From NCBI GenBank assembly GCA_018262715.1, contig JADFDS010000039.1:1-64000 (forward strand): a DNA stretch of 64,000 bases, read 5' to 3'. Source of the DNA: Bacteroidota bacterium. Its GTDB lineage: Bacteria; Bacteroidota; Bacteroidia; Bacteroidales; VadinHA17. The position numbers and the translations under genes are program-made. This document shows, one piece after another, positions 3,809 through 62,283 of this stretch; position 1 is the first letter of the stretch, and every line of letters starts with the position of its first letter. The notes beneath the pieces were generated by a model that did no database searches, was not told where the DNA came from, and saw nothing but the letters and a program-made list of their open reading frames with translations.

Positions 3809-3829
3809 TTCAATCACTGTTTTGTTAAT

Positions 3830-3989
3830 CTGATATTTGCAGTTCAGTGGCTGCCGGCAGAGGAGGCGGTAACTGATTTGCTAGTCTGTTATTTGCAGAT
3901 CAGTGGCTGCCGGCAGAGGAGGCGGTAACTGATTTGCTAGTCTGATATTTGCAGATCAGTGGCTGCCGGCAGAGGAGGCGGTAACTGAT
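3830..3989. repeat. 56-bp tandem repeat that copies the 3' end of the GPP34 gene
   Basis: Three near-identical copies of the core cagtggctgccggcagagga, beginning at 3845, 3901 and 3957, so the period is 56 bp. The copy at 3957 is the actual C-terminal coding end and stop of the GPP34 gene on the minus strand (residues ending VTASSAGSH then TGA). The other two are downstream duplicates that carry the same stop codon. Copies differ at only a few positions, so the duplication is recent. Confidence 0.9.
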
Positions 3990-4639: not shown

Positions 4640-4885
4640 ACTGTAAAGTTAAGCTGCCCGAGGGGAATAAAGGTTACCGGGATTGTAATAATGACTTGAT
4701 TATTTTATGGAAGGGGGCCGAACAATTAACAACGAGACAAGCATGTATCGGTCCGGGAACTATTCATGGATCAGAAACAGTTCACCTGGAGTGGTTCAGA
4801 CAAAAGTCATTGCATTTATATACCAACGGTGAACAGAGCCGCTCAGGCATAAGTCAACACAGTGCTCTGTCCCGGAAAGCAGGGC
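4640..4885. other. Upstream region of the GPP34 gene, no gene seen
   Basis: Non-coding stretch between the GPP34 start and the 47-bp satellite. It should contain the minus-strand promoter of the GPP34 gene, but I cannot pick a clear -7 box. An 81-codon plus-strand frame runs from here into the satellite; it has no family resemblance and terminates inside the repeats, so I do not call it. Confidence 0.35.
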
Positions 4886-5392
4886 AGCTCGTGAGTAAGT
4901 CATTGAAGTGTCATGCGGCTGGTGCAAAGGGTAGCTTATGAGCAAGTCATCGAAGTGTCATGCGGCTGGTGCAAAGGGTAGCTTATGAGCAAGTCATCGA
5001 AGTGTCATGCGGCTGGTGCAAAGGGTAGCTTATGAGCAAGTCATCGAAGTGTTATGCGGCTGGTGCCAGGGGTAGCTTATGAGCAAGTCATCGAAGTGTT
5101 ATGCGGCTGGTGCCAGGGGTAGCTTATGAGCAAGTCATCGAAATGTCAGGCGGCTGGTGCCAGGGGTAGCTTATGAGCAAGTCATCGAAATGTCAGGCGG
5201 CTGGTGCAAAGGGTAGCTTATGAGCAAGTCATCGAAATGTCAGGCGGCTGGTGCAAAGGGTAGCTTATGAGCAAGTCATCGAAGTGTCAGGCGGCTGGTG
5301 CAAAGGGTAGCTTATGAGCAAGTCAGCGGAGTGTCATGCTGCTGGTGCCAGGGGTAGCTCGTGAGCAAGTCAGCATAATGTCATGCTCCCGA
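4886..5392. repeat. 47-bp tandem satellite, about 10.7 copies
   Basis: Units start at 4886, 4933, 4980, 5027, 5074, 5121, 5168, 5215, 5262, 5309 and 5356, exactly 47 bp apart; the last is partial and degenerate. Each unit begins agcttatgagcaagtcatcg and ends ggctggtgcaaagggt. Variants (catgcgg, tatgcgg or caggcgg; gcaaagg or gccaggg) are clustered in runs of adjacent units, as expected from unequal crossover or slippage. Stop codons occur in all frames on both strands, because 47 is not a multiple of three and each unit carries tag/tga/taa, so it is not coding. Each unit contains the near-palindrome gcttatgagc. There are no unique spacers, so it is not a CRISPR array. Confidence 0.95.
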
Positions 5393-10938: not shown

Positions 10939-11355
10939 TCAGACCTTTATTTTGAATTCAAATTTTTCACCTATCCGGCCTCTCAGCAGCCATACTGCCA
11001 GGTACCAGCATCCAATCGCGGCAAAAGAGATCAGCGCGGAAGCCAGTTCACCTGCACCGGCCAGCAGAGCGGCTACAAACGCAGTGATAAGCACGATGAA
11101 AGGAATAATGTAACCTATAAGAAGCGCCTCGAAACCTTGCGAGAGCTTCATCTCAACCCTGACATTGTCACCGGGTTGGAGGGGAGCATCACACTTCGCA
11201 GTAATGACTTTGGTCTCTGATTTTCCGGCAGAACAAACTGACTTTGCCTGACAGCCCGAACAGGCCCCGGCAACAAGAATCTCAACCTCGGCTGTGCCGT
11301 CGCCAGGCACACTCAACACCTTTCCCTCATGCGTAATCGTTTCTCCCTGCGGCAT
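10939..11355 (-). CDS. rseC: SoxR-reducing system protein RseC family
   Basis: About 138 residues. A cysteine-rich cytoplasmic segment (ACSGCQAKSVCSAGKSETK, four Cys) is followed by two transmembrane helices (residues about 77-97 and 101-121). This is the RseC/MucC layout. In Enterobacteria RseC works with the Rsx (Rnf) complex in reducing SoxR. In Bacteroidota it is regularly the first gene of the rnf operon, as here, and probably assists assembly or electron transfer. The ATG at 11355 is preferred over the TTG one codon upstream. The operon promoter should lie in the AT-rich stretch 11360-11430. Confidence 0.85.
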   Translation of the reverse strand: MPQGETITHEGKVLSVPGDGTAEVEILVAGACSGCQAKSVCSAGKSETKVITAKCDAPLQPGDNVRVEMKLSQGFEALLIGYIIPFIVLITAFVAALLAGAGELASALISFAAIGCWYLAVWLLRGRIGEKFEFKIKV

Positions 11356-11644
11356 CAATGGATTCTTGAAAAGGCAATTTTAAGGAATTACCGTGAAATA
11401 ATATATAACAATGGTCATTATTTTAATAAGTATGAAGGTCTGAGGGGCTAAAGGTCTGGTTATTTGCGATTTGCGATTTGCGATTTGCGATTTGGGGCCA
11501 AACCACTACAATTCATGATGCGGGCAAAATTGTAAATCGCAAATCGCACATCTACAATGCTGTATGCCCTGCAGCCTTTGCCGACGATGGATGATCCTAA
11601 ACTGCGGCCATTATCCGGTGCATTCAATTTTCTGAGCTGGTCCC
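11356..11644. other. Intergenic region between recG and the rnf operon
   Basis: 289 bp. The AT-rich part (about 11375-11430) is the probable rnf promoter region on the minus strand; a degenerate -7 (tatttcac on that strand) can be seen but is not convincing. The rest holds the GCGATTT hairpin element (11461-11549) and, just before it, two short tgaaggtctg/aaggtctgg units related to the 8-bp repeat near 29.1 kb. No gene is visible. Confidence 0.5.
11461..11549. repeat. GCGATTT hairpin element, copy 1
   Basis: The left arm (11461-11495) is four and a half direct copies of the heptamer gcgattt. After about 38 bp of unrelated sequence the right arm (11534-11549) has two copies of the reverse complement aaatcgc. 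The arms can pair to form a large hairpin. It lies between the recG stop and the rnf operon start, both on the minus strand. It is one of four copies of this element in the window, and the only one without an adjacent intrinsic terminator. Confidence 0.85.
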
Positions 11645-13750
11645 TCAGCTTATCTCTGACCACGAATACTTCTTCCCGAACAATCTTTTCAGGTTGACTT
11701 TCAGGATGCTGTTCACCGGCTGTGCCAGCTCGGGGTCATCAGACAGGATCTCCGCTGCACGCGACCGCGCCAGGTTAAGTATCTGCCCGTCCTTCCCCAG
11801 GTCAGCTATCTTAAGGTCAAACGCCATTCCGCTCTGCTGCGTCCCCTCCAGGTCACCCGGCCCGCGCATCCGCAGGTCAGCTTCCGCGATCTCAAAACCA
11901 TCAGTTGTGGCAATCATCGTATTGACGCGCTCCGCAGCGTCTGCCGAGAGCCTGTGCGAGGTCATCAGCACGCAGTACGACTGGTCTGCGCCACGGCCCA
12001 CCCGACCGCGCAACTGATGCAACTGCGAGAGTCCGAATCGCTCCGCACTCTCAATAACCATCACACTGGCATTGGGTACGTCAACACCCACTTCAATCAC
12101 GGTTGTTGCGACCATTATATGCGCCTGCCCCCTGCGAAACATATTCATCGAGATCTCCTTGTCCTTCGAGGTCATCCGCCCGTGAACAACACTGATGCAG
12201 TACTGTGGCGGCGGGAAGGCACGGGCCATGCTCTCGAGGCCATCTTCGAGATCCTTGTAATCAAGTGATTCCGACTCCTTTATCAATGGATAAACAACGT
12301 AAATCTGACGCCCGTCCCCGATCTGCCTCCGCATGAACCCGAAGACCTTTTCACGCTCGGCATCGGTGAATGCCATTGTCTTTATCGGCTTCCGCCCGGG
12401 CGGTAACTCGTCAATGACAGAGACATCTAGGTCGCCATAAAGGGTCATCGCCAACGTGCGGGGGATTGGCGTGGCAGTCATCACAAGCACATGCGGAGGA
12501 CAATCGCTCTTCTGCCACAGCTTCGCGCGCTGCGCGACACCGAAACGGTGCTGCTCGTCAATTATAACCAGCCCCAGGTTCTTATACTGTACGTTTTCCT
12601 CGATCAGCGCGTGCGTTCCGATCAATATGTCAATTGAACCGTCAAGCAGTCCCTTTTCTATCCTTGCCCGCTCACTTTTCTTTGTCGACCCTGTCAGGAG
12701 CGCTACGTTTGCATCGATTCCTGAAACAAATTTACTAATGGAGTTAAAGTGCTGCATGGCAAGAACTTCCGTGGGGGCCATCAGGCAGCTCTGGAACCCG
12801 TTGTCGGCGCCGATCAGCATGCTCATAAGCGCAACCATCGTCTTCCCGCTGCCAACATCTCCCTGAAGGAGCCGGTTCATCTGCCTGCCGCTGCCAAGAT
12901 CGGCACGGATCTCGCGGATCACCCTCTTCTGGGCCTCGGTGAGTGCAAAGGGAAGGTTGTTGGCATAAAACGAATTGAGCCTTTCACCGACTACCGAAAA
13001 GAGGAACCCGTGTGTGCTTTTCTTACGGTTATCCTTGTATCTCAGCAGGTTAAGCTGGATGTAAAACAGTTCCTCAAATTTCAGCCTGAAACGGGCATTA
13101 TCGATGTCATTGTTTGAATCAGGGAAATGGATTCTGAAAAGGGCATCAGACAGGCTCATCAGCTTCATCGGTTCGGTGACTGAAGAGGGGAGAGTCTCAG
13201 GGAAGCGGAGTGCCGGCATTGAAAATGCCGTTGCCATGAGCTTCCCGATCGCCTTTGAATGAAGGAAGTGATCCTTCATCTTCTCCGAGGTGCTATACTG
13301 TGCCTCAAGTGCAGAGGAAACTCGTGTTTCGCGCTTCTCTGCCTCCTCTATTTCAGGATGCACAATGTTGAATGCACCGCTGAAGAGGGTGGGTTTGCCG
13401 AAGATGATATACTCCTTTTCGGGTTTGTATGAGCTGATAACCCACTTGTGTCCCTTGAACCAGACAAGCTTTACAATGCCGGTCTCATCGTAGAAGTCTG
13501 CTGTCAGCCTTCTCCCTTTTCCGACCCCCTCGGTGGTGAACCTGCGGATCTTGCCCTTCACCTGTACGTACTGCATGTCGGTATCAAGCTCCCTGACCTT
13601 GTAGAAGCGGGTTTTATCGACGTACTTGTAAGGAAAATAGTATATCAGGTCGCGGAATGTGTGTATGTCTGCCTCCGCCCCGAGCAGTTCTGCCCGTTTG
13701 GGGCCCACTCCTGGAAGGAATTTGATCTCACTGTCAAGCAATTCAGACAT
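11645..13750 (-). CDS. recG: ATP-dependent DNA helicase RecG
   Basis: About 701 residues, the usual RecG length. The N-terminal wedge/OB domain starts FLPGVGPKRAELLGAEAD. The helicase core shows Walker A GDVGSGKTMVAL, motif II IIDEQHRFGV (DEQH box), motif III TATPIPRTLAM and motif VI QLRGRVGRG, followed by the RecG-specific C-terminal segment (ATTDGFEIAEADLRMRGPGD). RecG remodels stalled replication forks and Holliday junctions. ATG at 13750 is preferred over the GTG one codon upstream. The methyltransferase gene starts divergently 72 bp away. Confidence 0.96.
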   Translation of the reverse strand: MSELLDSEIKFLPGVGPKRAELLGAEADIHTFRDLIYYFPYKYVDKTRFYKVRELDTDMQYVQVKGKIRRFTTEGVGKGRRLTADFYDETGIVKLVWFKGHKWVISSYKPEKEYIIFGKPTLFSGAFNIVHPEIEEAEKRETRVSSALEAQYSTSEKMKDHFLHSKAIGKLMATAFSMPALRFPETLPSSVTEPMKLMSLSDALFRIHFPDSNNDIDNARFRLKFEELFYIQLNLLRYKDNRKKSTHGFLFSVVGERLNSFYANNLPFALTEAQKRVIREIRADLGSGRQMNRLLQGDVGSGKTMVALMSMLIGADNGFQSCLMAPTEVLAMQHFNSISKFVSGIDANVALLTGSTKKSERARIEKGLLDGSIDILIGTHALIEENVQYKNLGLVIIDEQHRFGVAQRAKLWQKSDCPPHVLVMTATPIPRTLAMTLYGDLDVSVIDELPPGRKPIKTMAFTDAEREKVFGFMRRQIGDGRQIYVVYPLIKESESLDYKDLEDGLESMARAFPPPQYCISVVHGRMTSKDKEISMNMFRRGQAHIMVATTVIEVGVDVPNASVMVIESAERFGLSQLHQLRGRVGRGADQSYCVLMTSHRLSADAAERVNTMIATTDGFEIAEADLRMRGPGDLEGTQQSGMAFDLKIADLGKDGQILNLARSRAAEILSDDPELAQPVNSILKVNLKRLFGKKYSWSEIS

Positions 13751-13822
13751 CACTGGCGGTCAAAAAGATTGTCACCGAAAATAGTTAATTTTGACCGGGA
13801 TTCAAATGAACTGTCTGAAGAA

Positions 13823-15166
13823 ATGAACCTCCATACAGCATCGGCTTATGCCATGCTCCTGCTGACTGCCCGAAGTACTGCGGGTCACGGAGTGCACAGT
13901 CCCTTCATGTTCCGTTTCATCACGGAGGTGATCGGGGGCAGGAGTGACATTGCAATAATGAGGGAGGTTGAGAGCCTCAGACGGGAGATGCTTTCAGACA
14001 GGCGGGTGGTGATGGTGACCGATCTCGGTGCAGGATCATCGGTGATGAGAGGCAGTGAGCGAACCGTGCGGCAGATAGCCTCTGCTGCCGCCGTGCCGAA
14101 AAGGGAGGCGTCGCTGCTGACGAGAATAGCTGCGAGCCTCGACCTGATCAGAACGGGGAGGCCGGGAAGCCGGCAACAACCAGGAGGGCAAACTGGTGCC
14201 GGGGATGGGTCCGGGGAAGAGCCGAAAATAGTTCTGCAGAAGCAAGCTGAAGCAGGAGATTCGCAGTGTGCCGCGGTAGAAAATGAAACAAATAAGCAGA
14301 AGCAAGCTGAATCAGTTGATGCACTGTGGTCAGGGGAAGGTATCCCGGCACCTCAGCCATTCAGGGAGTCGGATTCCGGCCGTGAGGACGCTGGTCGTGA
14401 GGATTCCGGCCGTGAGGATGCCGGTCGGGAGGATTCCGGCCGTGAGGATGCCGGTCGGGAGGATTCCGGACGGGATGAGACCGGCCGGGACAATCAGCCG
14501 GTGATCCTCGAGCTGGGCACATCGCTGGGAATAAGCACTCTTGCCCTGGCGCTGGGAGCGCCCCAAAGTAAAGTTATTTCGGTGGAGGGCTGCCCTGTAC
14601 TGGCAGCTATCGCCCGCGATAACCTTCGCAGACACGGTGCACTGAATGCAGAAGTGATCTGCATGGAGTTCGGGAAGGCACTCACTGAACTTTACGAAAT
14701 GGGGGTGAAAGTTGCACTTGCTTTTGTTGACGGTAACCATCGCGGAGCAGCAATGACGGAATATGTGCGCAAAATCAGGCAGATGGGGGAGGAGATGATA
14801 ATCGTTGCTGATGATATTCACATGAACCGGGATATGATAAAAGCCTGGCGCTCAATTGTGTCAGGCAGCTCCACCAGTCCGGTCCCGGATCCTTGGCTGC
14901 CGCCCGCCGGCCCGGTCCCGGATCCTTGGCTGCCGCACACCAGCCCGGTCCCGGATCCTTGGCTGCCGCACACCAGTCCGGTCCCGGATCCTTGGCTGCC
15001 GCCCGCCGGCCCGGTCCCGGATCCTTGGCTGCCGCCCGCCGGCCCGGTCCCGGATCCTTGGCTGCCGCCCGCCAGCCCGGTCCCGGCTACCCTGGAAACA
15101 CTCCGTACGGGAATGCTGTTCTGCATCCCATCCATCACCCCGGGGCATTACAGGGTGCGGTATTAA
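13823..15166 (+). CDS. Class I SAM-dependent methyltransferase with two inserted repeat tracts
   Basis: 447 residues from the ATG at 13823, chosen because the frame upstream only shadows recG. The N-terminal segment AGHGVHSPFMFRFITEVI and the SAM-binding motif ILELGTSLGIST (about residues 226-238), with SVEGCPVLAAIARDNL, ALAFVDGNHRG and IIVADDIHMNRDMIKAWRSI, define a Bacteroidota family of putative O-methyltransferase-like enzymes that I judge to be roughly 250-270 residues. Two in-frame tandem-repeat expansions enlarge it: GRED[SA] repeats before the SAM motif (residues about 183-222) and six PVPDPWLP-type units (about 352-418) between the last helix and the final strand (ATLETLRTGMLFCIP). 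The reading frame and core motifs survive on both sides. The substrate is unknown. Confidence 0.75.
   Translation: MNLHTASAYAMLLLTARSTAGHGVHSPFMFRFITEVIGGRSDIAIMREVESLRREMLSDRRVVMVTDLGAGSSVMRGSERTVRQIASAAAVPKREASLLTRIAASLDLIRTGRPGSRQQPGGQTGAGDGSGEEPKIVLQKQAEAGDSQCAAVENETNKQKQAESVDALWSGEGIPAPQPFRESDSGREDAGREDSGREDAGREDSGREDAGREDSGRDETGRDNQPVILELGTSLGISTLALALGAPQSKVISVEGCPVLAAIARDNLRRHGALNAEVICMEFGKALTELYEMGVKVALAFVDGNHRGAAMTEYVRKIRQMGEEMIIVADDIHMNRDMIKAWRSIVSGSSTSPVPDPWLPPAGPVPDPWLPHTSPVPDPWLPHTSPVPDPWLPPAGPVPDPWLPPAGPVPDPWLPPASPVPATLETLRTGMLFCIPSITPGHYRVRY
14371..14491 (+). repeat. 15/30-bp tandem repeat inside the methyltransferase gene
   Basis: About eight units of 15 bp, organised mostly as 30-bp pairs (gattccggccgtgaggatgc type), coding for alternating GREDS and GREDA, with GRDET at the end. 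The unit is a multiple of three, so copy changes keep the frame. It is placed just before the SAM-binding motif. Confidence 0.9.
14879..15092 (+). repeat. 33-bp tandem repeat inside the methyltransferase gene
   Basis: Six complete 33-bp units beginning ccggtcccggatccttggct, starting at 14879 and then every 33 bp, plus a truncated seventh at 15077. They encode an 11-residue unit PVPDPWLPxxx ending PAG, HTS or PAS. The units are nearly identical, so the expansion is recent. All six plus-strand and minus-strand frames are open through the array, which produces several spurious overlapping reading frames. Confidence 0.95.
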
Positions 15167-29083: not shown

Positions 29084-29198
29084 GACCTTCAGACCTTCAG
29101 ACCTTCAGACCTTCAGACCTTCAGACCTTCAGACCTTCAGACCTCAGACCTTCAGACCTCAGACCTTCAGACCTTCAGACCTTCAGACCTTCAGACTT
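29084..29198. repeat. 8-bp microsatellite (gaccttca), about 14 copies
   Basis: Perfect head-to-tail gaccttca units, interrupted by two shortened 7-bp units (gacctca). It lies between the tex stop and the oligopeptidase start, ending about 23 bp before that ATG. Because the period is 8, a change of one unit shifts the upstream reading frame (a GTG at 29066 is presently in frame with the oligopeptidase gene) and alters promoter or leader spacing. Reverse-complement units (tgaaggtc) also occur near 11433. Confidence 0.95.
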
Positions 29199-48613: not shown

Positions 48614-50014
48614 ATGAAAGAACTTTTGCGGAACAAATTTTTCAAATTCGGCATAGCCGGAGTACTCTACCTCCTGTGGGTGATATGGGTGGGCAACTTC
48701 TGGCTGCTGCTCGGATTGCCGATAGTATTCGACATATATGTATCCAAAAAGGTAAACTGGGCATTCTGGAAGAAACGCCACGGTAAAAATCATGTTGTTA
48801 TTGAATGGCTTGATGCACTGATCTTTGCGGTGATTGCAGTGACATTGATCAATATCTTCCTCTTCCAGAACTACCGCATTCCGACTCCCTCCATGGAGAA
48901 GACCCTGCTGGTGGGTGATCACCTGGCTGTAAGCAAGGTGGCATACGGCCCCCGCATGCCCAATACCCCCCTCGCCTTCCCCTTTACCCAGCATACCATG
49001 CCTTTCACCGGCGGCAAGGGGAAATCATGGTCTGACCTTATTCACTGGAAGTATAAAAGACTCAAGGGATTCGGGCATGTCAAAAACAATGATATCGTCG
49101 TCTTTAACTTCCCGGCTGGAGATACAGTCTGCCTGGAGCAGCAGGCAATAAGCTACTATGAGATTGTTCGTGAACGGATTGAGACACTCACTGCGGAGGA
49201 TATCAGGGCAGGCAGGCCTTTGAAAAGCAAGGATGAGTATTATTCAGTTGCAAGGCAGATGATCTGGAATGAGTACACGGTAATCTACAGGCCTGTTGAC
49301 CGGCGTGACAATTATGTGAAGAGGTGTGTTGGCATACCCGGCGACACTGTCCTGATCAAAGGAGGGAAGCTGTTCATCAACGGTCATGAGAACGCGGAGT
49401 TCGAGACCCAGCAGACATCCTATTACGTGCGTACCAATGGTACCCGGATAAATCCCAAGGCTTTTGAAAGAATGGGCGTGTCAAAATCAGACCAGTCCCT
49501 TATGCTTTCAGGAACTGTCTACAGGCTGCCGCTGACGAAGGAAAACGCAAAGACAATCTCAGGATTTGCAAATGTCACCGGGATTGAGGCCGACTACCAC
49601 AGGCCCGGTGAATATCTTGCCTCTGTCTTTCCTCATGATCCCGCGTACCGCTGGAACGAGGATTACTTCGGCCCGCTCTGGATACCGAAAAAGGGAACCA
49701 CGGTGAAGCTTGACATGACCAACATTAACTTCTATACATCCATTATCGATATATACGAGGAGAATGACCTGGAGATACGTGATACAGTAATATATATTAA
49801 CGGCAAGCCTGCTGACAGCTATACCTTTAAGATGGATTACTACTGGATGATGGGTGATAACAGGCATGACTCAGCCGACTCACGCTTCTGGGGATTCGTC
49901 CCTGAGGATCACATCGTCGGGCGCCCTGTGCGTGTCTGGCTCTCAATTGACAAGGAAGCCCAGGGATTTAAAAAGATAAGATTCAACAGGTTCTTCAAGG
50001 CAGCCAAGAGATAA
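48614..50014 (+). CDS. lepB: Signal peptidase I
   Basis: 466 residues, the enlarged Bacteroidota form. The N-terminal membrane helices (FGIAGVLYLLWVIWVGNFWL and IFAVIAVTLINIFLF) are followed by the catalytic domain: nucleophile Ser93 in RIPTPSMEKTLLVGD, general-base Lys in RDNYVKRCVGIPGDTVLI (about residue 235) and the C-terminal box MMGDNRHDSADSRFWGFVPE. A large insert (about residues 265-390) between these boxes explains the extra length. The enzyme cleaves signal peptides from exported proteins at the outer face of the inner membrane. Its gene is convergent with rplT across the hairpin element and a shared terminator. Confidence 0.95.
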   Translation: MKELLRNKFFKFGIAGVLYLLWVIWVGNFWLLLGLPIVFDIYVSKKVNWAFWKKRHGKNHVVIEWLDALIFAVIAVTLINIFLFQNYRIPTPSMEKTLLVGDHLAVSKVAYGPRMPNTPLAFPFTQHTMPFTGGKGKSWSDLIHWKYKRLKGFGHVKNNDIVVFNFPAGDTVCLEQQAISYYEIVRERIETLTAEDIRAGRPLKSKDEYYSVARQMIWNEYTVIYRPVDRRDNYVKRCVGIPGDTVLIKGGKLFINGHENAEFETQQTSYYVRTNGTRINPKAFERMGVSKSDQSLMLSGTVYRLPLTKENAKTISGFANVTGIEADYHRPGEYLASVFPHDPAYRWNEDYFGPLWIPKKGTTVKLDMTNINFYTSIIDIYEENDLEIRDTVIYINGKPADSYTFKMDYYWMMGDNRHDSADSRFWGFVPEDHIVGRPVRVWLSIDKEAQGFKKIRFNRFFKAAKR

Positions 50015-50076
50015 TTGCGAATTGCGATTTGAGATGTTCGATTTAATTCGCAAATCACAAATCGCAAATCGCAAAT
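50013..50076. repeat. GCGATTT hairpin element, copy 2
   Basis: attgcgaattgcgatttgag and following bases form the left arm. After a minimal loop at about 50045 the right arm reads attcgcaaatcacaaatcgc and continues to 50076. The two arms are near-complete reverse complements, making a stem of about 30 bp. The element overlaps the lepB stop codon and is directly followed by the bidirectional terminator at 50077-50106. Confidence 0.9.
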
Positions 50077-50106
50077 AAAAAAGCGGGCCTCAGCCCGCTT
50101 TTTTTT
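50077..50106. terminator. Bidirectional intrinsic terminator between lepB and rplT
   Basis: aagcgggc (50081-50088) pairs with gcccgctt (50093-50100) across a 4-base loop, with A-run before and T-run after, so it functions for both convergent genes. Confidence 0.92.
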
Positions 50107-50452
50107 ACTCTTTTACTTTGTCCACTATCGCCTTAAAGGCTTCAGGATGGTTCATCGCCAGGTCAGCGAGGGTCTTGCGGTTAAGGGAAATTCCCTTCTT
50201 CTCAAGCCCGCCGATAAACTGCGAGTAACTCATTCCGTGAAGACGTACTCCCGCGTTGATTCTCTGGATCCAGAGTGCGCGGAACTGCCCCTTCTTGTCC
50301 TTGCGGTCACGGTACGAATAGGCAAGCCCTTTCTCAAGCACGTTCTTTGCAACGCTGTAAACATTGGCGTTGTTGCCGAAGTACCCTTTGGTCTGCTTGA
50401 AGATCTTTTTTCTTCTTGCCTTCGATGCTGGTGCGTTTGTTGCTCTTGGCAT
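50105..50452 (-). CDS. rplT: Large-subunit ribosomal protein L20
   Basis: 115 residues, typical bL20: [20 protein letters not shown] at the start and [20 protein letters not shown] in the body; very basic N-terminal tail. It binds 23S rRNA early in 50S assembly. It is the last gene of thrS-infC-rpmI-rplT and lies 101 bp after rpmI. The stop touches the terminator T-run. Confidence 0.97.
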
Positions 50453-54249: not shown

Positions 54250-55980
54250 ATGGATACAAAATTTGCGCTTCATGGAATAGACTACCTTATAATGGCAGTC
54301 TATTTCGTTTTTGTGCTGGGTATAGGTTGGGCCCTGAAGAAGTATATGAAGAACGCCACTGCCTTCCTTGAGGCGGGAAGATCCATCCCCGCCTGGGTTG
54401 CAGGCCTGGCATTCATCTCCACGAACCTCGGTGCCCTCGAGGTGATGGGCATGACTGGCTCAGGTCTCAAGTACGGTATGCTCACCACCCATTTCTACTG
54501 GATTGGCGCCATACCGGCAATGGTCTTCCTGGCCCTCTTCATGATGCGTTTCTATTACGGCTCCAAGGCACGGTCAGTACCCGAGTACCTGAAGCTTCGG
54601 TTTGATGAGAAGACGCGCGGACTGAATGCCATCCTGTTTGCTGTTATGACAGTGCTTGCCTCGGGGATCTCCATGTACGCCCTCGCCCTTCTCCTTGAAA
54701 ATGTACTGGGATGGAACTTCAACGTATCACTCTTCGCCTCTGCGGCGATAGTGCTGGGTTACACATACCTTGGAGGACTCTCCTCTGCCATCTATAACGA
54801 AGTGCTTCAGTTTTTCATTATTGTGATAGGCCTTCTGCCAATGGCTTTCCTTGTCATGAAGGATGTCGGGGGATGGGGCGGCATGCAGGCCAGCCTGGCC
54901 CCGATTGTGGAGAGCAAGGGTTTTGCGGCTGATGCGTGGACTACAACCTGGAAGTATACAGGAACCGGCTCCGGAAACCCTCTGGGAGTGGCATGGTACG
55001 GCATCTTCGCAGGATTGGGCTTTGTGCTCTCCTTCGGCTACTGGTGCACAAACTTCCTGATTGTGCAGCGTGCCATGGCGGCCGAGTCAATGACGGCTGC
55101 ACGCAAGGTGCCTCTGATCGGCGCCATACCTAAGATGTTCATTCCCTTCCTTATTATTGTCCCCGGCATCGCTGCACTTGTGCTGCTGAACGATCCGCTG
55201 AAAGGATTTGCACTGCCATTGAACGACGCCGGGCAGCCTATCTATGACTATACTATAATCATGCTGCTCAAACAGTACCTGCCCGCCGGCGTACTTGGTC
55301 TCGGGGTGACGGCACTGCTCGCCTCTTTCATGTCAGGCATGGCCGGAAATGTTTCGGCTTTCAATACAGTATGGACCTATGACATCTATCAGAGCTACAT
55401 CCGGCCGGCAACAGGCAACAAGGAGGCTGATGACAAACATTATCTCAAGGTCGGAAAGATGGCTACCGTTGTGGGAGTGCTTGTCAGCATCGCTGCAGCG
55501 TATATTGCAAGCAAGTTCGGCAACATAATGGACTTCCTCCAAACGATCTTCTCAATGATCAATGCCCCGCTCTTTGCGGTGATATTCCTGGGGATGTTCT
55601 GGAAACGGTCAACAGGCAATGCGGCATTCACAGGACTGCTGGCAGGATTCCTGATGGCTCTGGTACATCATGGTTTGACTCAGCCAGAGGGAGCCACCAC
55701 CCTCGTCAAGGGCGGATGGCTCGGTGTAGTCCATACATACCCTGTTGAGATGGCACAGAACTTCTGGACAGCAATTATAGCCTTTACTGTGGCTACGCTG
55801 CTGACGGTTTTTATTTCGCTGCTCTCCAAACGCACCAAGACCGATGATGAACTCGACGGCCTTGTCTACTCAATGACGAAGAAGCTCGACGACTCCGGAG
55901 TGGTGTGGTACAACAGGCCCTGGTTCCTTGCACTTATTGTGGGAATTATTATGATTGTGCTCTCAATCTTGTTCTGGTAA
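54250..55980 (+). CDS. Sodium:solute symporter (SSS family)
   Basis: 576 residues from the ATG at 54250; an upstream in-frame start (54199) adds a basic tail that does not fit the family. Fourteen or so membrane helices. SSS signatures are MAVYFVFVLGIGWALKKYMK, FLEAGRSIPAWVAGLAFIST, GSKARSVPEYLKLRFDEKTR and LASFMSGMAGNVSAFNTVWT, plus LQTIFSMINAPLFAVIFLG. It resembles Bacteroidota sugar/Na+ symporters of the SGLT-like group, so a carbohydrate substrate is likely, though not proved. A 70-residue membrane protein follows after 17 bp and is probably co-expressed. Confidence 0.92.
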   Translation: MDTKFALHGIDYLIMAVYFVFVLGIGWALKKYMKNATAFLEAGRSIPAWVAGLAFISTNLGALEVMGMTGSGLKYGMLTTHFYWIGAIPAMVFLALFMMRFYYGSKARSVPEYLKLRFDEKTRGLNAILFAVMTVLASGISMYALALLLENVLGWNFNVSLFASAAIVLGYTYLGGLSSAIYNEVLQFFIIVIGLLPMAFLVMKDVGGWGGMQASLAPIVESKGFAADAWTTTWKYTGTGSGNPLGVAWYGIFAGLGFVLSFGYWCTNFLIVQRAMAAESMTAARKVPLIGAIPKMFIPFLIIVPGIAALVLLNDPLKGFALPLNDAGQPIYDYTIIMLLKQYLPAGVLGLGVTALLASFMSGMAGNVSAFNTVWTYDIYQSYIRPATGNKEADDKHYLKVGKMATVVGVLVSIAAAYIASKFGNIMDFLQTIFSMINAPLFAVIFLGMFWKRSTGNAAFTGLLAGFLMALVHHGLTQPEGATTLVKGGWLGVVHTYPVEMAQNFWTAIIAFTVATLLTVFISLLSKRTKTDDELDGLVYSMTKKLDDSGVVWYNRPWFLALIVGIIMIVLSILFW

Positions 55981-55997
55981 CTTTAAAAACGACGATC

Positions 55998-56210
55998 ATG
56001 TTAGATATAAGATTTCCGATTGGACTGATGTTCTCGATTTTCGGGCTGATCATTACAATCTACGGCATTGCCACACTGGGTAATGATGCAATGTATGCCC
56101 GTTCGCTGAACATAAATGTAAACCTGGTATCAGGTATAGTCACCCTGCTTTTCGGACTCATCATGCTATTTTTCTCCGGCCCGGTGAAGAAGCTGCTGAA
56201 GAGAAAATGA
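55998..56210 (+). CDS. Small two-helix membrane protein
   Basis: 70 residues from the ATG at 55998. Two transmembrane helices (FPIGLMFSIFGLIITIYGIA and VSGIVTLLFGLIMLFFSG) are separated by a short polar loop (NDAMYARSLNINVN), with a basic tail (KKLLKRK). I do not know a function. It lies 17 bp after the sodium:solute symporter and is followed at once by a terminator, so it is the last gene of that unit and may be an accessory subunit. Confidence 0.75.
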   Translation: MLDIRFPIGLMFSIFGLIITIYGIATLGNDAMYARSLNINVNLVSGIVTLLFGLIMLFFSGPVKKLLKRK

Positions 56211-56243
56211 AAAAAAAAAAGCTGCTGAGAGGCAGCTTTTTTT
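56211..56243. terminator. Intrinsic terminator after the symporter unit
   Basis: An A-run, then agctgc, a short loop and gcagct followed by a T-run; it works in both directions. The T-run runs straight into the GCGATTT hairpin element. Confidence 0.88.
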
Positions 56244-56312
56244 ATTTGCGAATGTCGATTTGCGAATTGCGAATCGTGGAAAAATCGCAACTCGTAACAT
56301 GCAAATTACAAA
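56243..56312. repeat. GCGATTT hairpin element, copy 3
   Basis: Left arm atttgcgaatgtcgatttgc and following bases to about 56274; right arm from about 56283 (aatcgcaactcgtaacatgc, then aaattacaaatca). The arms are more diverged than in copies 2 and 4. It fills the space between the terminator and the lysA stop codon. Confidence 0.82.
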
Positions 56313-59174: not shown

Positions 59175-59182
59175 CACGATAG

Positions 59183-59211
59183 AAAAAAGCTGCAGGGATG
59201 CAGCTTTTTTT
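59183..59211. terminator. Intrinsic terminator after the tRNA-Leu pair
   Basis: A-run, agctgca, loop ggga, tgcagct and T-run, a symmetric structure that can end the tRNA transcript and possibly the convergent GH3 gene. The T-run leads into a GCGATTT hairpin element. Confidence 0.9.
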
Positions 59212-59212
59212 A

Positions 59213-59274
59213 TTTACGATGTGCGATTTGCGATTTGCGAATTGCTGGAACAATCGCAAATCGCAAATCGCAAC
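59213..59274. repeat. GCGATTT hairpin element, copy 4
   Basis: Left arm gtgcgatttgcgatttgcga (from 59221) plus attg; loop ctggaa; right arm caatcgcaaatcgcaaatcg. The stem is nearly perfect over about 25 bp. It ends against the stop codon of the GH3-serine hydrolase gene (59275-59277), with the terminator on its other side. Confidence 0.92.
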
Positions 59275-62200
59275 TCATTGGATTCTTGCATCATATACCG
59301 CCTGCAAAATCTTTCCCCTGATGGAGAGATCTGAAAGCCTGTTGTTGTTCCGGGTGGGATAAACCCTGTTGCTGAGGAACACATATGATATCTCCTCATC
59401 CGGATCACACCAGATGAAGGTGCCGGTGAACCCCGAGTGCCCGAAACTGGCAGGCGAGGCCGACGGACAGGGATAAGCTTCCTCCGGAGGCACCGTATCA
59501 TTCCGCAGCAGCGGTTTGTCAAATCCCAGTGCCCTGCGGTTATCGTTGTCCGGGAACTGAACGGTTGTGTACTTCCTGAGCACATCACTGCTTAGAACTC
59601 TGACACCTCCGTATTCACCTCCCCTGCGGTACATCTCCACTAGCTTCAGGAGGTCATTGCCCGTGGCAAACAGACCGGCATGACCTGACACGCCTCCCAG
59701 CATTGCTGTCCCCTCATCATGCACCGTACCCCTGAGCAACTGCTTCCTGAAAAGAGAATCATACTCAGTAGGGACAACCCTCTCTGCCGGATACTTCTCA
59801 AGCGGCCTGTAGGTGATGTTGAAGGCACCGATGGGACGGTAAATATTTGCCGGTGCAAACTTGTCTATGGTGCTGTCGGTGAGACTCTCTATGATCTCTG
59901 CAGCAAGGATGAAGGTGAGATCGGAATAGACATATTTTTTATCACCCACAGGACTGTCACGTATCTCCCTGAACATATCCTTCAGGTAATGACGGTTCAT
60001 GTAGATTGAGTCAGTAACCTGTAAGGCATACTTCCGGTTGGTATAATCGCTGAAAATGCCCCGCCTGAAAGTGCTGTCATTCTCAAGGGTATTTCTCCAG
60101 AAGGGTATCCATGCCTTCAGACCGGCCTGGTGGGCGAGCATCTCGCGAAGGACCATGTCACCCTTGTCGGAAAAACGAAACCAGGGAAGGTAATCACCAA
60201 GGGTTTTGTCAATGTCAAACAAACCTCTGTCATCAAGCAGCATCAGAGAGGGAGTGGCCGCTGATACCTTGGTCACTGAGGCAAGGTCCCACAGGTCATT
60301 TTCTGTGACAGCCTCGGTGCTGTCGTAGAGATGGAATCCGTAGCATTTGTCAAGCACGACGATTCCCCGGCGTGCTATTAGCACCTGGCAACCCGGGAAA
60401 GCCAGGGTGTCAATGCCTGCACTCACGATGGAATCAACTTTGCTTATCAGCCTCACCGAGGAAAGTCCTGCATTCTCCGGAAACCCGAACTGCATCCTGA
60501 TGTTGCCGGGGGTTTTGATGCCCGTTCCTGCCGGATAATTTTCATTTACTGTCACCGGCAGCCTGCCTGATGCGCCGATGGCGCCGAAGAGCACCTGCAC
60601 CGCAACCTGGTGAGTGTAACTGTTATCCTGGTATGCCACAAGCATAGCCGTCGGCTTCTTCGTCATGTCAAGCCGCGCAACACCATAGGGATTGCCGAAC
60701 CATATTACAGCAGCCCTGTCAAGTGCGGCTATCTGCCGGAAAAGACTGTTCAGGGCCGGCGTGACGCCATAAAGCCCTGCCGGCTTCTGCTCCAGTGCAC
60801 AGAAACCTGCTATGACCACATCATAATCCTTTAGTTTTGACATTACAAACCTGGCGCCCTGCTCATTTGCCGGGTCAATGAAGTAGTGGTCAGCATTGGT
60901 ATACCTGTCGGTCATACGCTGGAATTCGGTCATAGCCAGTCGGTTGACAGAGACAGTGGCTATTCTTATCCTGTCAAGCCTGCCCAGCGGAAGGAGATTG
61001 TCATTGTTCTCTATCAGGGTCATCGCTCCGGCATACAGGTCACGTATCAGCGCCGGGTGCCCGGAAACGGGGATGCCGCCAGGGGCTGAGGCGAAGCCGG
61101 CAGCTGCCTCTGATGCCGGGCCCGGAATTGCCTGATCCCCGGATTCTGCTTTACCTCCATTTTCCGCCCTATGAATCTCCAGCCACAGCTTTGCTTCAAG
61201 AAGCTTCCTGCACCTGTCAGTGATCTCACTTACTGCTATCTCGCCCTTTTCGACCCTGCGGGCAATCTCCTCGATGGCACGGATAGGATCAGTGGAGTAT
61301 TCTATTATGTCATTCCCCGCCAGCAGCGCCTCGGCATCGGCAATGCCCGACGGGAAGGTCATGGTCGCACCGGCCATATTCATCGCATCTGTAAGGATGA
61401 GCCCCCTGAAACGCGACTCCTGCCTGAGCAGTCCGGTCACCACTTTCTTCGAGAAAGTCGCCGGAAGACCTCCGGCATCCAGTCCCGGCACACTTATATG
61501 CGCTGTCATAACTGCCCCGATTCCTTCATCTGCCAGCCTCCTGAAGGGTATCAGCTCAATCCTGTCAAAACGGCTGCGGTCACCCCTGATTACAGGAAGT
61601 CCGGTATGGGAGTCAGTGTCAGTGTCACCGTGACCCGGGAAATGCTTTGCACAGGCTATGATGCCGTTATCCTGCAGCCCCTTCATATACATTGTCGCCT
61701 TTTCTGCAACCTTCTCCGGATCCTCACCGAAGGAGCGGTAGTTTATTACCGGATTCATAGGGTTGTTGTTCACATCGGCAACGGGTGCAAGGTTCAGGTT
61801 TACCCCAATGTCATGGCACTGCCACGCCACGGCAGCACCCATCCTGTAAATCAGGGAGTCATCCTGCAGCGCTCCCAGCGTCATCTGGTACGGAAAGTCC
61901 TCCACCTCCCTCAGCCGCATCCCGGTTCCCCACTCAGCATCCTGTGCAATGATCAGCGGTATCCGCGAGATACTGCTGATCCTTTTCGTGTAATCCAACT
62001 GCATATCACGTGATCCCTCGAAGAAAATCACACCCCCGATACCATACTTTTCAACCAGCAGCTCTACCTGCCTGTAATTACCTCCCTTTTCGTCAGCCCA
62101 TGCCGGTACCCATATTAGCTGAGCAATCATCTCCCTGACAGTCATAGTGTTAAGTATGCTGTCAACCCTGGGGTCGCCGGTGAAATTTTTCCACGGAACA

Positions 62201-62283
62201 TTGTTCTCCGCTCCGGTGACCGGAGAGGGGTAGATCATCAGGGCACACACGGCAAGTACTAGTGATAAGCAGGATTTTTTCAT
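59275..62283 (-). CDS. GH3 (NagZ-like) beta-N-acetylglucosaminidase fused to a serine hydrolase
   Basis: 1002 residues with a signal peptide (SCLSLVLAVCALMIYPSPVT). Residues about 30-390 form a GH3 domain with the NagZ-type motif AKHFPGHGDTDTDSHTGLPV (Asp-His general acid dyad) and the nucleophile Asp in GLILTDAMNMAGAT. A GH3 C-terminal domain follows (to about 610). The last 380 residues are a beta-lactamase/serine hydrolase domain: SxxK in DLASVTKVSAATPSLM, YxN-like YSDL and the third box region SGHAGLFATG. Such fusions are common in Bacteroidota and probably act on peptidoglycan in the periplasm (sugar removal plus peptide or ester cleavage). The second domain may act as an esterase or D,D-peptidase. 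Confidence 0.9.
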   Translation of the reverse strand: MKKSCLSLVLAVCALMIYPSPVTGAENNVPWKNFTGDPRVDSILNTMTVREMIAQLIWVPAWADEKGGNYRQVELLVEKYGIGGVIFFEGSRDMQLDYTKRISSISRIPLIIAQDAEWGTGMRLREVEDFPYQMTLGALQDDSLIYRMGAAVAWQCHDIGVNLNLAPVADVNNNPMNPVINYRSFGEDPEKVAEKATMYMKGLQDNGIIACAKHFPGHGDTDTDSHTGLPVIRGDRSRFDRIELIPFRRLADEGIGAVMTAHISVPGLDAGGLPATFSKKVVTGLLRQESRFRGLILTDAMNMAGATMTFPSGIADAEALLAGNDIIEYSTDPIRAIEEIARRVEKGEIAVSEITDRCRKLLEAKLWLEIHRAENGGKAESGDQAIPGPASEAAAGFASAPGGIPVSGHPALIRDLYAGAMTLIENNDNLLPLGRLDRIRIATVSVNRLAMTEFQRMTDRYTNADHYFIDPANEQGARFVMSKLKDYDVVIAGFCALEQKPAGLYGVTPALNSLFRQIAALDRAAVIWFGNPYGVARLDMTKKPTAMLVAYQDNSYTHQVAVQVLFGAIGASGRLPVTVNENYPAGTGIKTPGNIRMQFGFPENAGLSSVRLISKVDSIVSAGIDTLAFPGCQVLIARRGIVVLDKCYGFHLYDSTEAVTENDLWDLASVTKVSAATPSLMLLDDRGLFDIDKTLGDYLPWFRFSDKGDMVLREMLAHQAGLKAWIPFWRNTLENDSTFRRGIFSDYTNRKYALQVTDSIYMNRHYLKDMFREIRDSPVGDKKYVYSDLTFILAAEIIESLTDSTIDKFAPANIYRPIGAFNITYRPLEKYPAERVVPTEYDSLFRKQLLRGTVHDEGTAMLGGVSGHAGLFATGNDLLKLVEMYRRGGEYGGVRVLSSDVLRKYTTVQFPDNDNRRALGFDKPLLRNDTVPPEEAYPCPSASPASFGHSGFTGTFIWCDPDEEISYVFLSNRVYPTRNNNRLSDLSIRGKILQAVYDARIQ

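Follow-up and report, generated by a model that had tools for sequence, protein, structure and literature searches.

How a repeat built from a single heptamer, GCGATTT, came to lie behind several genes of one Bacteroidota genome, and whether it is mobile, functional or a product of local growth, is the question raised by the 64,000-nucleotide stretch analysed here, referred to as the window. An earlier note on this sequence had described four copies of what looked like a mobile or spreading element, composed of arrays of the heptamer and its complement AAATCGC, situated beside terminators at gene ends and resembling REP sequences in position. All four copies are present where they had been reported (Table 1), copies 3 and 4 indeed abut stop codons, and copies 2 to 4 are each touched by a bidirectional terminator-like site.

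Table 1. Heptamer copies in the window and the features next to them
Feature	Position	Strand	Description
RseC/MucC-type gene	10939-11358	-	flanks copy 1
Copy 1	11462-11552	.	(ATTTGCG)4.7 array 11462-11494, 40-bp loop, (AAATCGC)2.7 array 11534-11552
CATTGTAGA tail of REP-like palindrome	11551-11559	-	abuts copy 1
recG	11645-13753	-	flanks copy 1
Copy 2	50013-50076	.	hairpin occupying space from signal peptidase I stop (TAA, ends 50014) to bidirectional terminator
Bidirectional terminator-like hairpin	50074-50107	.	common to signal peptidase I (+) and rplT (-, stop 50105)
Bidirectional terminator-like hairpin	56209-56246	.	between ORF 55905-56210 (+) and lysA (-)
Copy 3	56245-56312	.	degenerate GCGATTT-type; between terminator T-tract and lysA stop codon (56313)
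Bidirectional terminator-like hairpin	59182-59214	.	downstream of tRNA-Leu pair
Copy 4	59213-59274	.	hairpin, best preserved; from tRNA-Leu terminator to stop codon (59275) of minus-strand gene
Gene behind copy 4	59275-62283	-	glycoside hydrolase family 3 domain joined to beta-lactamase-type domain

The copies had also been described as folding into long stems, which holds for three of them: when compared with 200 dinucleotide shuffles each, the predicted RNA folds of copies 1, 2 and 4 (z -4.77, -5.34 and -7.26, respectively) were not equalled by a single shuffle. Copy 3, however, folds no better than its shuffles (z -0.93; 39/200 equal or better); it does not contain an exact match to the 14-mer GCGATTTGCGATTT, hence falls outside the genome-wide site counts given below. 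An Rfam search of the window returned only the two tRNA-Leu genes, with no family matching the heptamer elements.

The repeat is far from confined to these places. Across the whole genome (G000; 3,145,869 bases in 44 contigs), GCGATTTGCGATTT has 55 matches (24 forward, 31 reverse) at 35 sites, and a control using the reversed word has none. An agnostic scan for tandem repeats, covering the window and 20 further stretches (464 kb, around 15% of the genome), found 13 period-7 arrays and between zero and three for every other period from 4 to 12, while one Markov-resampled control gave no period-7 arrays; 20 stretches from nine relatives (399 kb) likewise contained 13. Tandem arrays of other kinds are also present in the window: a 47-bp repeat of approximately 10.8 copies and 94% identity (4881-5386), and arrays with 56, 30 and 33 bp units at 3816-3989, 14371-14490 and 14874-15086, the last two inside long ORFs.

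The number of heptamers varies, as had been noticed, from two to four perfect units per array in this genome up to chains of 16 in the relative G006. When two-armed, the element takes the form 5'-ATTTGCG...CGCAAAT-3'. A hairpin as its defining form is nevertheless not supported: of 38 arrays in this genome, only nine are followed within 140 bp by a complementary partner and none is preceded by one, leaving 29/38 one-armed, and copy 3 barely folds. Downstream partners accompany 17/19 arrays in G015 and 12/31 in G006, with no upstream partner in either (0/19 and 0/31), such that in the pooled sample of these three genomes partners lie downstream of 38/88 arrays and upstream of 0/88, and opposed pairs are always convergent. 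The opposite order, AAATCGC before GCGATTT, was found in none of the 16 genomes searched. The window is therefore not typical, as three of the six two-armed sites observed in the genome fall within it. Arrays also keep phase at their ends, with the outer end falling at (G)ATTTGCG in 72/119 cases.

Counts of the repeat's position relative to stop codons and gap classes rest on ORFs from a simple length-based caller rather than a gene finder. In the fetched parts of the genome, 43/51 arms are intergenic, and they are closely associated with gene ends, as the earlier note had held: of the arms lying no more than 15 bp behind a stop codon, 24 are sense (GCGATTT) and none is antisense. The antisense arms sit farther away, with 11 at 31-60 bp and seven at 61-120 bp, as would be expected of the far arm of a hairpin. 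The one-armed arrays near stops divide similarly, 18 sense to none antisense, and the bias is weaker in relatives (9 to 3 in G006, 4 to 1 in G015 plus G018). By class of gap, the 35 sites comprise 14 convergent, 14 codirectional and one divergent, plus six within called ORFs that were omitted from the class comparisons; in five of these six the site is at the 5' margin of the called ORF, whose start was probably wrongly assigned. Relative to 217 control gaps (42 convergent, 125 codirectional, 50 divergent), sites are enriched in convergent gaps (14/29 against 42/217, p = 0.0015) and depleted in divergent ones (1/29 against 50/217, p = 0.013); in this comparison copy 4, in its tRNA gap, counts as codirectional, and two of the 35 sites share a gap. 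Neither of the findings that would have told against the original description, confinement to four places or a random relationship with gene ends, was thus observed.

Adjacency to terminators fared less well. It is real in the window, but comparison with control gaps means it is not clearly valid genome-wide: a terminator was called in the same gap at 7/29 intergenic sites against 26/217 controls (Fisher p = 0.08), and by class in 4/14 against 14/42 convergent gaps (p = 1.0) and 3/14 against 10/125 codirectional gaps (p = 0.13). Terminator partnership was consequently dropped as a defining trait. A gene-polarity mechanism resting only on convergent genes was also dropped, because in the acidobacterial genome G062, described below, 19 of the 23 opposed pairs for which both neighbouring genes were called are in codirectional gaps.

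The enrichment between convergent genes and depletion between divergent ones, along with the strong folds of three of the four window copies, could be read as signs of a functional RNA element, namely a 3' hairpin selected to protect mRNA ends or to aid termination between convergent genes. Yet most arrays are one-armed and copy 3 does not fold; four members of the genus have no match to the 14-mer; no Rfam family was matched; and sister species, as detailed below, lack the element or carry unrelated repeats at the same gene ends. Selection for such an RNA is thus distinctly unlikely as the explanation, and there is a warning here for readers of genomes, in that a hairpin of this type downstream of a gene is not necessarily a terminator or a small RNA.

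Of the 21 other members of the genus, 17 contain GCGATTTGCGATTT, with matches per genome ranging from 0 to 67 across the 21, whereas it is absent from all 14 genomes sampled from other genera of the family. Two of 24 genomes from other families of the order have one match each, with the reversed control also matching in two; in the phylum, 12 of 246 other sampled genomes contain the word (one or two matches each, G127 having one array of seven overlapping matches), close to the level of the reversed control (eight genomes). No claim is made for spread of the word beyond the genus within its own phylum. The excess of heptamers is likewise not general, as 281 kb from other genera of the family and order contained four period-7 arrays, fewer than the six of period 10.

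Within the genus, three of the four window copies could be traced in relatives. The gap between rplT and the signal peptidase gene, home to copy 2, is filled with GCGATTT-type sequence in nine of 18 genomes, compact and empty in five, and otherwise occupied or not comparable in four. Sister species differ in this respect: G016 is filled and G005 empty, and similarly G019 is filled and G013 empty. On a lysC tree, a midpoint-rooted phylogeny of one gene that excludes G008, the filled state at this site needs eight changes, five of them forced by well-supported branches. The empty site of G013 has a single base between the terminator T-tract and the stop codon, exactly where the element lies in its relatives, including its sister. 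Inspection by eye of the rplT site resolved no target-site duplication in the A/T-rich junctions, in which short duplications cannot be told.

At the tRNA-Leu gap, the site of copy 4, the element is present in nine of the 16 genomes that could be read there. For copy 3, in the lysA gap, 17/20 loci were readable, of which three have GCGATTT-type arrays; the remainder contain AGGCAAT, AGGCAGT or GACTGTG heptamers, an octamer, a nonamer, REP-like sequence, or nothing. The nonamer array (GGTAATCCT) is that of G014, the closest relative, in which GCGATTTGCGATTT is absent and the array stands behind lysA (L032). Even where the unit is the same its number differs, with about ten copies of GACTGTG in G006 and about three in G019. 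The octamer CAGACCTT, which follows lysA in four relatives, has a C-skewed coding strand there, and so breaks the G-first rule described later. An octamer array related to it, (GACCTTCA)14, is found behind a plus-strand gene at 29084-29196 of the window, with the same C skew on the coding strand, the reverse of that of the heptamers. Several contigs of relatives end at an array.

Evidence that the repeat is copied, as well as gained and lost, comes from a composite element that recurs in G015, in which a GGATTTGCG array is joined to an imperfect right arm through a loop that the copies have in common. Other short repeats lie outside this element. A 39-base stretch of this right arm is found within six mismatches at 10/18 G015 loci and 3/22 G006 loci, one of these exact, compared with a best of 15 or more mismatches in shuffled loci; it was found at 0/30 loci of the genome studied here and 0/12 acidobacterial loci. 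The shared right arm in G015 and G006 is a consequence of the copying of an element, not of repeated invention. Some loci have a nested layout, with AAAGTC-type repeats and ACTGCCT arrays outside the GCGATTT hairpin (L149-L166 of G015; L135 and L143 of G006), and repeats of different unit seem to be stacked within one gap. A second family with the unit AGGCAGT, common in G001, behaves in the same way: its arms within 15 bp of stops are all sense (14 to 0), and its opposed pairs are convergent only.

An alternative that dispenses with movement is that arrays grow in place at gene ends through replication slippage and template switching at quasi-palindromes. The dominance of period 7 over the other periods from 4 to 12 is consistent with this, as is the changing number of GACTGTG units at the single lysA site. 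It sits poorly with the occurrence of the same heptamer at 35 unrelated places in this genome, and with the imperfect arm and common loop shared between many places in G015 and G006. Array ends in phase also argue against it, both at (G)ATTTGCG here and in G062, where 39/54 AGGACTG arrays start at A and exactly 30 bases is the most frequent length (17/54), while the rplT site suggests new full copies at formerly empty sites in sister species. Growth in place is accordingly rather unlikely.

The element appears instead to spread, as the earlier note had supposed, because its presence at a site flips between sister species and because relatives share a dispersed copy with an imperfect right arm. 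On balance it seems marginally probable that GCGATTT arrays form a dispersed intergenic heptamer family that reaches new places by being copied, through a trans-acting or recombinational process, and that is mostly neutral or selfish; the copy number, the placement at gene ends, the fixed arm order, the gain and loss at orthologous sites and the imperfect arm common to relatives are all direct observations. Under this copying account, whole hairpins or single arms would be copied into gaps between genes, and selection would remove those that break genes or gene ends, so that the survivors would be found a few bases behind stop codons. The unit number might then shift by slippage, and distal arms may decay or be replaced. 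Most copies would do the cell neither good nor harm or would be selfish, and an RNA hairpin that appeared in a transcript would be a by-product. Counting against the account are the weaker orientation bias in relatives, the target-site duplication that could not be resolved at the rplT site, the mostly dissimilar hairpin loops of G062 described below, the presence of the shared right arm at only 3/22 G006 loci and at 0/30 in this genome, and the failure of the searches below to find a mobilising enzyme.

These domain searches covered Y1_Tnp, the domain of REP-type transposases (RAYTs), and RVT_1. The REP-type TnpA for which the earlier note suggested looking did not materialise: no match to Y1_Tnp was found in this 98%-complete genome, and the domain is present in 8/22 genomes of the genus. 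A resident RAYT was therefore rejected as the mover. Reverse transcriptase was rejected as the maker, since RVT_1 was found in 4/22 genus genomes and amounts here to no more than part of a frame, broken by an internal stop. Four incomplete genomes, G001, G012, G015 and G016, have many 14-mer matches and no match to RVT_1. Carriage by phage was also rejected: the exact hairpin was found in no viral contigs, nor was a hairpin in the opposite order; a 21-base one-armed array was found in four viral contigs, two of which show the same sequence.

A less direct role for RAYTs was also weighed, whereby the repeat would be a REP-like element moved by an HUH (Y1_Tnp) enzyme that has since been lost, or that acts on REP palindromes and carries heptamers along. 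At 9/35 sites a REP-like CATTGTAGA tail is found no more than 120 bp away, against 2/174 intergenic gaps (p = 1.7e-6, the control gaps including some of the same sites), and thus these tails and the heptamer arrays keep company. Y1_Tnp is also found in all five of the array-bearing genomes from other phyla, in addition to the eight of the genus. The domain is nonetheless missing from the present genome, with its 55 matches of the 14-mer, as well as from G012 (64 matches, 61% complete) and G015 (46 matches, 78% complete), and only two of the 16 Y1_Tnp loci examined in the genus and other phyla (L120 and L243) are near a heptamer array. Mobilization through RAYTs is hence unlikely.

Similar hairpins occur in distant bacteria. 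A scan of genome contigs for both exact arms, which may omit records near the window's own genome, found four contigs, from one Chloroflexi, one Blastocatellia and two other Acidobacteria MAGs; the corresponding genomes have 14, 4, 83 and 35 matches of the 14-mer, with 0, 0, 0 and 1 for the control. All 13 opposed pairs within 150 bp at the listed places in other-phylum genomes have the same order of arms. In the phylum of G062, 15/247 sampled genomes contain the word, two in bulk (83 and 70 matches), and four contain the control. One acidobacterial locus (L063) has both TGCGATT and TTTGAGT hairpins. Among 72,556 plasmid records, a BLAST search with the low-complexity filter on gave a sole match, a Nostoc plasmid with a (GCGAATT)6.7 array.

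Heptamers of many sequences are abundant in G062, where 300 kb contained 106 period-7 arrays, 23 of period 9 and zero to four of each other period tried. These arrays have more than 20 different units and form 28 opposed pairs. In every one of the 28, the leading arm is the one richer in G than in C, and with three other sets included this holds for 31/31 pairs over 12 units; once one-letter variants are merged these represent around nine independent units, for which the probability by chance alone is about 0.004, and AGGCAGT adds another. Within 30 bp behind stops, G-skewed arrays on the coding strand outnumber C-skewed ones by 43 to 1 in G062, 5 to 1 in the genome studied here, 6 to 2 in a genus sample and only 3 to 2 in G060, giving 57 to 6 across the four sets. 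The arms of G062 hairpins are near-identical, yet within the 326 kb examined a similar sequence was found for only five of the 27 loops and for none of the other 22; hence arms spread without loops there, and whole-hairpin copying is not the rule. Heptamer arrays occur about once per 2.8 kb in this genome (L250-L264), some neighbouring arms having differing units (e.g. L253:7057-7177).

One possible interpretation, which we put forward tentatively and consider doubtful, is that a single strand-aware process makes heptamer palindromes from many unrelated sequences in several phyla. A conserved enzyme might add or insert G-strand heptamers at DNA ends exposed between genes, or the process might be driven by R-loops. 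Seen from the genes, the G-rich repeats would run outward from gene ends as at a telomere, by way of analogy. If true, such a process would explain the strand rule, the discrete 30-base modules of G062, the lack of relation between loops and the replacement of one heptamer by another at a single site. A literature search did not encounter either the same hairpin in Acidobacteria or Chloroflexi MAGs or the G-first strand rule.

Several known repeats invite comparison, as described in the available parts of the papers cited. REP sequences tagged GTAG, together with their RAYTs, are small extragenic palindromes located mostly downstream of genes (PMC3733652), a position shared with the heptamer arrays, which REP-like palindromes adjoin. 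However, REPs and REPINs are built on a 20-40 bp imperfect palindrome tagged GTAG or CGTC, whereas GCGATTT arms are heptamer arrays of variable number; REPs have an associated RAYT, whereas this genome lacks Y1_Tnp and its REP-like tails are separate neighbours at 9/35 sites. The element works like a REP sequence, but the features tested do not make it one. With regard to MITEs, which have terminal inverted repeats, a target-site duplication and a related transposase, the observations are palindromic ends that keep phase, A/T-rich junctions too uniform for short duplications to be told by eye, and domain searches that covered Y1_Tnp and RVT_1. The heptanucleotide elements of Geobacter metallireducens are multicopy tandem heptamers, 49 copies having four units, and differ in their unit, GGACCGG, and in lying also within genes, according to the sections available (PMC2700814). 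Repeats of TAACTGA, reported as intergenic in Beggiatoaceae, Cyanobacteria and some Bacteroidetes, have a similarly patchy distribution over phyla but, unlike GCGATTT, are in the text available mostly direct repeats upstream of start codons (169 direct sets, one indirect; PMC4679880). In the P6b stem of Nostoc tRNA-Leu introns, complementary heptamers of Class I (TDNGATT) and Class II (NNTGAGT) have repeatedly replaced one another at the same place, going by the accessible part of that study (PMC4476775). TGCGATT, a rotation of GCGATTT, fits Class I by its letters, although seven letters cannot tell homology from convergence, and the Nostoc case as there presented is one stem within an intron, not a dispersed family.

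The closest parallel is with the GGGAATC heptamers of Xanthomonas, which the available portion of their description (PMC4692102) gives as tandem and intergenic, mostly within 50 bp of stops on the coding strand, with many convergent pairs, seldom found between divergent genes, showing no link to insertion sequences and not conserved at the same genes between related species. Dispersed tandem heptamers, proximity to stops on the coding strand and convergent pairs are thus common to both. GCGATTT differs in containing no run of two or more G, so the type of G-quadruplex on which that account focuses cannot apply, and here, unlike in the Xanthomonas case as far as it is set out there, one heptamer also takes the place of another at a given gene end, depending on the species. 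A search of the literature with heptamer strings found no paper on a GCGATTT repeat; the earlier remark that the element has no name therefore stands for this heptamer, though its kind was already known. GCGATTT arrays are a new family of that known kind, intergenic heptamer arrays, and the same kind of repeat as that of Xanthomonas without being the same repeat. Heptamer arrays have so far been described genome by genome and, in the parts of those reports available, with separate explanations: G-quadruplexes in Xanthomonas (PMC4692102) and translational control in Beggiatoaceae (PMC4679880). Since the same anatomy is seen here with units unable to form quadruplexes, which change between sister species and follow one strand rule over two other phyla, a shared origin becomes testable.
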